This document shows, piece by piece, positions 5,616 through 7,491 of a stretch of 64,000 nucleotides of DNA. A program made the translations under genes and the position numbers. Each line of letters opens with the position of its first letter. Positions within the stretch are counted from its first letter, which is position 1. Location: positions 2,143,185 through 2,207,184 of the forward strand of contig NZ_CM001773.1 of the NCBI RefSeq assembly GCF_000314895.2. The letters run 5' to 3'. The notes beneath the pieces were generated by a model, which worked only from the letters and a program-made list of their open reading frames with translations, was not told the origin of the DNA and made no database searches. The DNA is from Providencia sneebia DSM 19967. Lineage in GTDB: Bacteria > Pseudomonadota > Gammaproteobacteria > Enterobacterales > Enterobacteriaceae.

Positions 5616-6036
5616 TTATCTCTCTTTTATATAGCGGTAGGGCATAAATAATAAATATTATCACTATAAGATGCTGGTTTATAATTGTTGTCAATGGTGA
5701 TGTTTAGATTTAATGATTAGGGTTTAACTTCTCCAAGAAAAAGTGTTGATGAATATAAAATATAATAGGTAAAAAAGACTTTTTTTCGATAAAAAATCTG
5801 GTTATTTAGTGAAGGGTTTTCGGTTTGTTATTCGTTCTTTCTACACATCCATCAGGGTTTTTTATGTTATTTTTGCATATTTATGCGAATAATATGCAGT
5901 TTGGAAAAATGTTTATATTCATTGACTTAATAAAAATGGCATGATAAAAGTAAACGCGTAACTATCAATTATACAATTATATGAGGATTCGGAGTAACTT
6001 GGATGGATGTCCATCCGATGAAAAGAATGAGATATC
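5616..6036. other. pdxK-mdtJI divergent intergenic region
   Basis: A+T-rich spacer between pdxK (minus) and the mdtJI leader (plus). TTGACT (5922-5927), 17 bases, then TAAAAG (5945-5950) is a plausible promoter for the leader transcript. GGATGG (6001-6006) and CCATCC (6011-6016) form a 6-bp hairpin just before the upstream ORF. No other gene is supported here. Confidence 0.4.
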
Positions 6037-6147
6037 ATGCTTAGCGTGACTAGCATTAAAATCAGTAAATCCCAAAGAAGAACCACACATCGTCTATTCC
6101 TTTCTGCGATTCTTTCCAGTGAACATCACTGGTGCGGTGCATTATAG
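6037..6147 (+). CDS. Leader peptide upstream of mdtJI (MdtU/SpeFL-like)
   Basis: A 36-codon ORF opens at ATG 6037 and ends TAG at 6145-6147, 156 bases before mdtJ. Its middle and end read KSQRRTTHRLFLSAILSSE then HHWCGAL. The RRTTH block also occurs in SpeFL, the ornithine-sensing arrest peptide that controls speF in E. coli, and a short upstream ORF (mdtU) has been reported for E. coli mdtJI. A hairpin lies directly upstream (6001-6016) and a terminator-like structure follows (6170-6216). Both are expected where ribosome stalling controls read-through. The ribosome binding site is weak (GAG at 6029-6031). That it is translated and senses a polyamine or ornithine is inference. Confidence 0.6.
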   Translation: MLSVTSIKISKSQRRTTHRLFLSAILSSEHHWCGAL

Positions 6148-6169
6148 CTTCTCTCTCGAATATTCATTT

Positions 6170-6216
6170 TGCTGAATAAAATCAGCATCACGTTGTTTTT
6201 TATTGTTTATTTTTTA
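6170..6216 (+). terminator. Candidate attenuator between leader ORF and mdtJ
   Basis: Arms TGCTGA (6170-6175) and TCAGCA (6182-6187) have a 6-base loop and are followed after six bases by a T-rich tract (about 6194-6216). The stem is short and the T tract offset, so it may act as a Rho-dependent pause region instead. Its place between leader ORF and mdtJ suggests a conditional stop. Confidence 0.4.
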
Positions 6217-6303
6217 ATTGCACGATGCTTCCTTAGTCAAAAAGTTTTTAATGGCTGTTTGAAAAACATACGAGTACGTGCAGTTCTGTAGAGAGATTTT
6301 ATC

Positions 6304-6732
6304 ATGATATATTGGATATTTTTAGGATTAGCTATTGTTACCGAGGTTATCGGGACATTATCAATGAAACACGCGAGTGTGAGTGGTGATTTTACGGGAA
6401 TGGTGGTGATGTATGCCATGATTGCGTCTTCCTATATTCTTCTTGCTATTGCAGTAAAAAAAGTGGCATTAGGCGTTGCTTATGCCTTGTGGGAAGGGAT
6501 CGGTATTTTATTTATTACAACATTTAGTGTTATGTGGTTTGGTGAATCACTTTCGCCGATGAAAATTGGTGGCCTAGTGTTGTTGATTACTGGAATCGGT
6601 TTGATTAAATCCGGTACGAAGAAAGTAACTGTTACAAAATCAGCTCAAAAAATGAAAGCAACCGCAGAGCGAGCGGTTAGTGCTGTTAAATCAAGTGGAT
6701 TAGCTCCGAATAACGTTAAAACGGAGGCTTGA
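6304..6732 (+). CDS. mdtJ: Spermidine export protein MdtJ
   Basis: Small multidrug resistance family subunit that works with MdtI to excrete spermidine across the inner membrane. At 142 residues it is about 20 longer than the E. coli protein, and the extra length is a charged Lys/Ala/Ser-rich C-terminal tail. Four membrane segments are visible, starting with [19 protein letters not shown] with its conserved glutamate, and including [16 protein letters not shown] and [17 protein letters not shown]. It opens the mdtJI operon, with mdtI starting three bases after its stop. Expression is probably set by the leader ORF at 6037-6147. Confidence 0.95.
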
Positions 6733-6734
6733 TT

Positions 6735-7067
6735 ATGGAAGGTCAATTTGAATGGTGGCATGGCGCCTTCTTGGTTCTTGCTGTCGTACTAGAAATTCTG
6801 GCGAATATCTTTTTAAAGATGTCGAATGGTTTTAAACGATATTGGTTAGGTATTTTATCATTAATTGCTGTATTAGGCGCATTTAGCTCGTTAGCTCAAG
6901 CCGTAAAAGGAATTGAACTATCAATTGCTTATGCTCTGTGGGGCGCGTTTGGTATTATTGCTACTGTTGCAGCAGGATGGATACTGTTTAATCAACGCTT
7001 GAATTATAAAGGCTGGGGTGGAATTGTTCTGTTATTATTAGGAATGGTTCTTATCAAGATGTCTTAA
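6735..7067 (+). CDS. mdtI: Spermidine export protein MdtI
   Basis: Partner subunit of MdtJ in the heteromeric spermidine exporter of the inner membrane. The 110-residue SMR protein has four transmembrane segments, with the conserved glutamate in [17 protein letters not shown], the [14 protein letters not shown] block and the closing [15 protein letters not shown]. An in-frame TTG lies at 6729, but the ATG at 6735 has GGAGG at 6723-6727 inside the end of mdtJ, so translation is probably coupled. A strong hairpin terminator follows. Confidence 0.95.
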
Positions 7068-7089
7068 TCTCTTTTAAAGCCTTTTATTA

Positions 7090-7131
7090 TCCGTGTAGCT
7101 GGTTTTGACGATATGCTACACGGATTATTTT
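7090..7131. terminator. Terminator between mdtI and yoaB
   Basis: Arms TCCGTGTAGC (7090-7099) and GCTACACGGA (7115-7124) with a 15-base loop, followed by TTATTTTAT. It serves mdtI and possibly the converging yoaB. Confidence 0.8.
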
Positions 7132-7143
7132 ATCTACATTATT

Positions 7144-7491
7144 TTAGTCAATTGCAGCAATCACTTTAATTTCGACTTTATACTCTGGCTTCATCAATTG
7201 TGCCTGAACAGTACAACGTACTGGCGCACTTCCTGCCACAACCCATGCATCCCATGCTTGGTTCATTCCCGCAAAATCGGCTTTGTCAGCAAGAAAAATC
7301 GTTGCATCAAGTATTTTACTTTTATCTGAGCCAACACGCTGTAACATGATATCAATTGCGGATAGTGTATTTGCTGTTTGAGCAATAATATCGGCATCTA
7401 AGTTTTCTGGAACGCTGGTGTAATAAACAACATTATTATGGATAACAGCTTCAGACCAACGATCATCAGGATCAATTCGTTTTATAGACAT
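7144..7491 (-). CDS. yoaB: RidA-family protein YoaB
   Basis: Small cytosolic protein of the RidA/YjgF family, whose best-studied members hydrolyse reactive enamine/imine intermediates from PLP enzymes. Its 115 residues match E. coli YoaB closely. The conserved parts are RWSEAVIHNNVVYYTSVPEN, the ANTLSAIDIMLQRVGSDKSK segment, DATIFLADKADFAGMNQAWD and the arginine-containing APVRCTVQAQL, which in RidA binds the substrate carboxylate. It is divergent from yoaA as in E. coli. Substrate of the YoaB subgroup is not established. Confidence 0.93.
   Translation of the reverse strand: MSIKRIDPDDRWSEAVIHNNVVYYTSVPENLDADIIAQTANTLSAIDIMLQRVGSDKSKILDATIFLADKADFAGMNQAWDAWVVAGSAPVRCTVQAQLMKPEYKVEIKVIAAID

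Follow-up and report, generated by a model that had tools for sequence, protein, structure and literature searches.

The mdtU-mdtJI locus of Providencia sneebia

The DNA analysed here (64,000 nucleotides in all, called the window below) comes from Providencia sneebia DSM 19967. Its genome has 3.88 Mb, and its nearest named mdtJ relatives, among the best 80 of 261 relatives, are Providencia species. In the window, the two genes of a spermidine exporter follow a short open reading frame and a leader with the following features.

5922-5950, plus strand: putative promoter-like element (TTGACT, 17 nt, TAAAAG), in a block TTGA[CT]TTAAT ... TAAAA conserved in an alignment of 11 leaders
5999-6018, plus strand: hairpin of 8 pairs before mdtU, able to form with standard pairing in each of 11 Providencia/Moellerella leaders
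6037-6147, plus strand: mdtU, a leader ORF of 36 codons plus UAG (ORF listing, loci of relatives, in-frame pN/pS of 0.11 over the last 18 codons)
6076-6090, plus strand: RRTTH codons, a block resembling one in SpeFL that the family does not keep (RR..H stands in this register in only 4 of the 60 distinct MdtU ends)
6112-6144, plus strand: codons of the last 11 residues, the conserved C-terminus (residue counts in 68 representatives; pN/pS 0.04-0.16 in four groups)
6145-6147, plus strand: UAG stop of mdtU, the same in 226 of 226 loci read
6150-6156, plus strand: anti-Shine-Dalgarno segment TCTCTCT, nucleotides 3-9 past the stop (complementarity tests; MFE and centroid fold of a 210-nt region)
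6170-6187, plus strand: small hairpin TGCTGA/TCAGCA, whose arms are largely kept in Providencia and not in Moellerella
6290-6296, plus strand: mdtJ Shine-Dalgarno region AGAGAGA, partner of 6150-6156
6304-6732, plus strand: mdtJ (NCBIfam equivalog NF007767, 162.1 bits, cut-off 122)
6735-7067, plus strand: mdtI (NCBIfam equivalog NF007934, 185.2 bits, cut-off 103)

The mdtU frame begins with ATG, ends with TAG and immediately precedes mdtJ in the same orientation, with a spacer of 156 nt between its stop and the mdtJ start at 6304. A preliminary description, made from the sequence alone, had placed a 36-codon frame before the exporter genes; the frame is there, and both genes that follow it exceed their NCBIfam cut-offs. 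Rfam gives no match at E 1 in 5700-7200.

What was known of mdtJI regulation

In E. coli, loss of the MdtU start codon abolishes the spermidine induction of mdtJ, Rho is involved, and the authors proposed for mdtU a mechanism like that of speFL (PMC7815308). The main text of that paper has no occurrence of UAG, RF1 or release factor. It also cites a western blot on which the YdgV product was seen. Other reports describe repression of mdtUJI by AcrR (PMC9769551), induction in mild acid (PMC10746267), and a rise in mdtJI mRNA caused by Rof and CspD (PMC9765468). Within the literature found, the control of spermidine export in E. coli is described only as far as a need for MdtU translation and Rho, and a spermidine response is reported for E. 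coli MdtU only among the members of the family. A limited search by the names MdtU and ydgV returned no mechanistic follow-up, from which absence from print is not claimed.

The preliminary description had mentioned a reported mdtU leader in E. coli, as PMC7815308 confirms, and had proposed a leader peptide and attenuator for mdtJI. Of this proposal, the regulatory leader peptide is supported, and the start-codon mutant in the same paper had already reported it for E. coli. An attenuator built on an intrinsic terminator is not supported, with no such site found.

Two better known leaders offer models. SpeFL (orf34, the ornithine leader of speF, PF10940) is, like mdtU, a short upstream ORF of a polyamine gene; it is described as arresting ribosomes at its own stop, with an involvement of Rho and with RNA that pairs with the speF ribosome-binding region (PMC6386406, PMC8429421), and as an RF1 inhibitor (PMC8429421). 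TnaC, the tryptophan leader of tnaAB, works through a ligand-dependent block of release at its stop codon, where the held ribosome masks downstream RNA (PMC8429421).

MdtU is a conserved peptide

A frame related to MdtU lies upstream of mdtJ in all 80 named loci (the best 80 of 261 relatives), within 420 nt in 76 of them; the other four, all in Yersinia, are found with a reach of 1,500 nt. The peptides form a graded series that starts in Providencia, passes by way of Proteus, Photorhabdus, Xenorhabdus, Morganella, Yersinia and Serratia, and reaches E. coli, where RefSeq annotates MdtU ahead of mdtJ. In Providencia and Moellerella, the last 18 codons have a pN/pS of 0.11 in frame, against 1.59 and 6.16 in the two shifted frames. 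Because this in-frame ratio is low, and because a related frame is present in all 80 named loci, the mdtU of the window is more than a chance frame. The window ORF is real, is under selection at the protein level, and represents in Providencia the MdtU of E. coli.

Conservation centres on the end of the peptide. Over the last 11 codons, pN/pS is 0.08, 0.08, 0.04 and 0.16 in four groups of relatives and exceeds 1 in both shifted frames. Across 68 representatives (more than 12% apart, drawn from the 146 non-identical of 164 leaders, and used also for the RNA tests below), glutamate stands at -8 from the stop in 66, tryptophan at -5 in all 68 and leucine at -1 in 65. The corresponding E29, W32 and L36 are invariant in 23 aligned relatives, E. 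coli included. The part of MdtU conserved family-wide is its last ~11 residues and the UAG stop.

The E. coli protein (ydgV, b4777) shares with the window peptide its place before mdtJ, the C-terminal E..W...L, the UAG, and an anti-Shine-Dalgarno segment right after the stop. The N-terminal two thirds of the two peptides, however, have no sequence relation, and the spacer to mdtJ is 106 nt in E. coli as against 156 nt in the window. Pfam gives no family for the window peptide at E 1 or better, neither PF23502 (YdgV) nor PF10940 (SpeFL). E. coli MdtU itself scores 93.5 bits with PF23502, a model of 33 positions of the E. coli type, which looks narrow; the window peptide is not filed under it. 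No solved structure matches either peptide at E 10.

By similarity, 112 of the 295 genomes of a family draw have MdtU matches at E 0.1, the weakest of them by chance; by position, all 144 genomes that carry mdtJ have an MdtU. In a draw of 274 genomes from the class, the search returned the query's own match plus a weak pair (E 0.005 and 0.0099) in which the alignment stops short of the C-terminus of the model, and nothing convincing outside the genome of the window.

A stop codon unchanged in the loci read

The mdtU stop is UAG in 226 of 226 loci read, a count that includes overlapping species and redundancy. When the end of MdtU is picked by residue score with the stop ignored, the codon that follows is TAG in 164 of 164 parsed loci. 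Seven of 171 loci, where the mdtJ start was missed by the pattern or the contig ended, were kept out of the RNA tests; read on their own, they too have TAG in every case.

A design that starts from mdtJ was chosen to avoid selection on MdtU itself. It gives 144 of 295 family genomes with mdtJ (143 over the cut-off), 139 of them read earlier and five more, with TAG in 144 of 144. The loci fetched on mdtJ alone, counted among the 139, have TAG in 50 of 50, and the last five loci in five of five; these 50 and five are not among the leaders of the RNA tests. In one of the loci (L232), the MdtU assignment is weak by residue score (-8.7, with the best runner-up at -2.2), and in two of the 50 (L210 and L219) the mdtJ start is probably misplaced.

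Neighbouring stops behave differently. UAG ends mdtJ in 2 of 164 loci and mdtI in 6 of 117. Control frames in 50 leaders end in TAG in 73 of 619 cases for other sense frames, 142 of 694 for antisense frames, 5 of 50 for the runner-ups and 13 of 50 for the best antisense frames. On an mdtJ tree with 164 tips, the minimum number of changes is 25 for the codon before the mdtU stop, 8 for the mdtJ stop and 0 for the mdtU stop.

RNA pairing was considered as the cause of the fixed UAG and rejected. The longest helix starts past the stop in 65 of 68 leaders and at position 0, next to its last base, in two, leaving the stop mostly unpaired; pairings longer than this helix can take in the mdtU stop, as they do in the window.

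The codon UAG is, of course, read by RF1 and not by RF2. Because UAG is fixed, because RF1 alone of the two reads it, and because SpeFL is described as an RF1 inhibitor, the simplest inference is that an arrest by MdtU acts on RF1, and that stops readable by RF2 would leak. Unusually conserved identity of a stop codon is suggested as a handle in searches for other leaders that arrest at termination.

An anti-Shine-Dalgarno segment beside the stop

The 16 nt past the mdtU stop pair with the mdtJ Shine-Dalgarno with a mean energy of -13.05 kcal/mol in the 68 leaders, whereas the seven other offsets compared give means of -4.9 to -8.0. Compared with shuffles of the same 16 nt, the mean z is -2.57, and 54 of the 68 fall in the best 5%. 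The best complement of the Shine-Dalgarno anywhere in the leader starts between -4 and +10 of the stop in 54 leaders and elsewhere in 14. The longest helix has 6-12 bp in 60 of the 68; it starts at nucleotide 3-6 past the stop in 52 and ends at 11-14 in 48. Only four leaders (L007, L033, L163 and L194) have a duplex weaker than -6 kcal/mol.

The two segments change together. Fifty-four distinct longest helices occur in the 68 leaders, and the true pairs of anti-Shine-Dalgarno and Shine-Dalgarno beat all 10,000 of 10,000 re-pairings, a comparison that ignores kinship. Within the genus, one leader (L130) pairs GTCCTTCTAGAT with ATCTAGAGGGAT, and the window pairs TCTCTCT with AGAGAGA. The nucleotides at about 3-14 past the stop complement the mdtJ Shine-Dalgarno and vary together with it. 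The pairing is also kept across Yersinia spacers of 340 and 385 nt (L056 and L054).

Folding of the window alone speaks less clearly. The TCTCTCT/AGAGAGA pairing is in the MFE and centroid structures of the 210-nt fold and missing from the MFE structure of a longer piece, in which upstream mdtU codons take the Shine-Dalgarno. The leader folds only slightly better than its shuffles (z of -0.72 for the 210-nt region and -1.47 for the longer piece).

When UAG occupies the A site, the ribosome shields roughly 10 nt downstream of that codon. By this measure, such a footprint would span most of the anti-Shine-Dalgarno segment. A switch that would work by masking the Shine-Dalgarno is supported by the complementarity comparisons across the leaders.

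Modelling of the footprint gives a mixed answer. A single footprint of 28 nt raises the mean unpaired probability of the Shine-Dalgarno from 0.19 to 0.30, with an increase in 51 of 68 leaders. Blocks placed elsewhere do as well, however: the best among up to four shifted positions has a mean of 0.30 too, and the stall position exceeds it in only 30 of 68; in the window, the single footprint moves accessibility from 0.31 to 0.35. The gain is small, since codons earlier in mdtU compete for the Shine-Dalgarno. In a refinement made after the single-footprint result, coverage of mdtU as far as the stop was compared with coverage 10 nt beyond it; accessibility goes from 0.20 to 0.41, and rises in 66 of 68. 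The switch therefore calls for further ribosomes behind the held one on mdtU, unless the folding calculation is too coarse.

Five Yersinia loci (L054, L056, L061, L063 and L068) have mdtU-mdtJ spacers of 290-484 nt, against 157-189 nt in other Yersinia, a natural insertion. The pairing is present in all three of the enlarged spacers examined (L054, L056 and L068).

A proposed mechanism

The mdtU leader is probably a cis-acting switch, in which a polyamine-dependent termination arrest at UAG frees mdtJ. Without the signal, ribosomes would terminate at the mdtU UAG and depart; the nucleotides past the stop would then pair with the mdtJ Shine-Dalgarno, leaving mdtJ untranslated, and in E. coli the untranslated RNA would be lost to Rho. 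At high polyamine (taken to be spermidine, as in the homologous E. coli leader), nascent MdtU would use its C-terminus to prevent its release at UAG, most likely by putting RF1 out of action. The ribosome so held would cover the anti-Shine-Dalgarno segment, the Shine-Dalgarno would be free, and MdtJI would be made. What we infer here is the arrest itself, its dependence on RF1, and that spermidine is the ligand in Providencia.

A more specific version is tentative, and we would put it at somewhat below an even chance. Here, MdtU would be a polyamine sensor locked to UAG, whose last ~11 residues, lying near the peptidyl-transferase centre and not, like the SpeFL block, deeper in the tunnel, make release by RF1 sensitive to polyamine. 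UAA and UGA would be excluded, as RF2 would allow escape, and the footprint on the co-varying anti-Shine-Dalgarno segment would be the switch.

The parallel with TnaC is one of working principle. TnaC ends in UGA, read by RF2, and masks a rut site, whereas for MdtU the stop is UAG and the held ribosome would presumably sit over an anti-Shine-Dalgarno segment. The invariant UAG, the conserved last residues and the position of this segment within the presumed footprint are only indirect signs that MdtU may belong among the termination-arrest leaders.

The fixed UAG and the adjoining anti-Shine-Dalgarno segment make the mechanism concrete and directly testable. If it is true, a swap of UAG to UAA should break the sensor, and compensatory swaps in the anti-Shine-Dalgarno and Shine-Dalgarno segments should restore control.

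A less likely alternative: translation without arrest

It might be, of course, that mdtU acts through translation per se, by coupling, by keeping Rho off or by holding the RNA open, with no arrest specific to the peptide. Such a scheme also explains why the E. coli start-codon mutant loses induction, and Rho is indeed involved there (PMC7815308). Mere translation, however, needs neither strong selection on the last residues nor a particular stop codon, and it leaves the dependence on spermidine unexplained. We regard this explanation as unlikely, although it survives better than those that follow.

Resemblance to SpeFL

The preliminary description saw in the block RRTTH a hint of a ribosome-stalling sensor common to MdtU and SpeFL. 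The block is certainly present, at residues 14-18 of the window peptide (-23 to -19 from the stop), and it has the same register in E. coli SpeFL. The match is non-trivial, because among 492 window ORFs of 25-60 aa, no other than mdtU shares a 5-mer with SpeFL. A case could thus be made that the Providencia peptide has the SpeFL sensor, with RRTTH binding ornithine or a polyamine in the tunnel. IRR.TH occurs in two Morganella loci (L033 and L045), and similarity to SpeFL anchored at the stop exceeds that of column shuffles (fraction 0.0011 for 14 Morganellaceae-like ends, 0.019 for all 60 ends), though the 14 ends were grouped after inspection and are related to one another. Codons -22 to -12 are also under selection in Providencia and Moellerella, with a pN/pS of 0.12.

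As a family trait, however, the resemblance does not hold. RR..H in that register is found in only four of 60 distinct MdtU ends (those of the window, of a second genome in its genus, of Moellerella and of Morganella), and E. coli MdtU lacks the motif. Codons -22 to -12 are constrained in other Morganellaceae (pN/pS 0.25) and in the Yersinia/Serratia group (0.30) as well, but show no selection at the protein level in the E. coli type (0.80). When the mdtJI leaders are aligned and compared with SpeFL, as the preliminary description had suggested, the profiles barely align (hhalign probability 4.7%, E 0.0086, on the RRTTH block). The SpeFL sensor is reportedly the block HIRR..H, which is invariant in 10 of 10 aligned SpeFL; the window reads SQRRTTH, without HI. 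The C-termini differ as well, with phenylalanine at -9 in 10 of 10 SpeFL and tryptophan at -5 in 60 of 60 MdtU ends, and so does the gene controlled, which in the window is mdtJI and not speF.

Homology to SpeFL as a family-wide feature of MdtU was rejected on the profile comparison, the register table and a SpeFL survey of 295 genomes of the order, in which 18 exceed the PF10940 cut-off. The genome of the window has no SpeFL above that cut-off; a match in it to E. coli SpeFL (22 residues, E 0.17) and a PF10940 match at the same locus (E 0.036, below the cut-off) were dropped as chance. We judge the RRTTH match to be a lineage-specific feature and not the sensor of the MdtU family. A role of this zone particular to Providencia and Moellerella, or to other Morganellaceae, would have low probability, and a SpeFL-type sensor in Providencia MdtU appears quite improbable. 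The case carries a lesson: a short motif in common with a well-known arrest peptide, even one in register, can be specific to a lineage.

The stops of the two leaders also differ. Among the 16 of 18 SpeFL loci that could be read, TAA ends 12 and TAG four, and a figure legend gives UGA for Salmonella SpeFL (PMC6386406), so that the SpeFL stop is varied where that of MdtU is UAG only. The two loci not read (L085 and L086) are the best two PF10940 matches of the order survey, and do not fit the SpeFL pattern.

Trans action and readthrough as unlikely alternatives

MdtU could instead be a small protein that acts in trans, for example as a partner of MdtJI; it is, after all, a conserved small protein encoded beside pump genes, and YdgV has been seen on a western blot (as cited in PMC7815308). 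Its conservation is confined to the C-terminal end, however, its stop is fixed, and the anti-Shine-Dalgarno segment abuts that stop, all signs of cis action that make a trans role very unlikely.

Least probable of all is that UAG is kept because polyamine promotes its readthrough, sending ribosomes across the anti-Shine-Dalgarno segment towards mdtJ: the window frame does stay open for 47 codons past UAG, as far as 6291, where it closes with a TAG that overlaps the mdtJ Shine-Dalgarno region, in-frame extensions in the 68 leaders have a mean length of 27.4 codons (16.8 for shuffles), and mdtJ is reached in frame in 21 leaders, compared with 10 and 3 for the two alternative frames, but the extension falls short of mdtJ in 47 of 68 (by being only 3-13 codons long in several), indels occur in that stretch among Providencia, and the pyrimidine anti-Shine-Dalgarno segment itself reduces in-frame stops. 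Readthrough was rejected as not universal.

Other elements of the leader

The stem 6170-6187, which the preliminary description called terminator-like, exists, but by scan it is no terminator. A scan of both strands over 5620-6310 finds no site with a GC-rich stem and an immediate T-run; the T-rich stretch starts several bases past the TGCTGA/TCAGCA stem. The 210-nt region is no more stable than its shuffles (z -0.72), and an intrinsic-terminator attenuator was rejected. The mdtU-mdtJ spacer has 15% C and 16% G, and no C-over-G bias of the kind expected at Rho sites.

The hairpin before the ORF, in turn, is better supported than was first described. Its 8 pairs can form in all 11 Providencia/Moellerella leaders, and two of these pairs are changed on both sides. 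The shuffle controls are mixed: of 500 shuffles, two reach the observed covariation score together with the percentage paired, 115 match on doubly changed pairs, and 344 on pair types. The 5' region before mdtU in these genera is invariant at 47 of 63 positions in 5977-6039, more than a start site needs. The promoter-like element at 5922-5950 is not among the four sites of a consensus promoter scan, where 4.0 are expected by chance.

Two loci (L221 and L222) have very divergent MdtU ends, ASILAWSGEL and ASVLAWCSEL, still followed by UAG. They also have another type of anti-Shine-Dalgarno, with ACAAAAC past the stop and GTTTTGT before the start.

In many loci of the E. coli type (for example L149, L152, L162-L168 and L170-L172), the mdtU frame is also open ahead of its annotated start, where a stretch without stops reads TADNC or NADNC. 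This may reflect conservation at the RNA level or an upstream start; translation possibly beginning upstream of the annotated mdtU start has been reported (PMC12350097).
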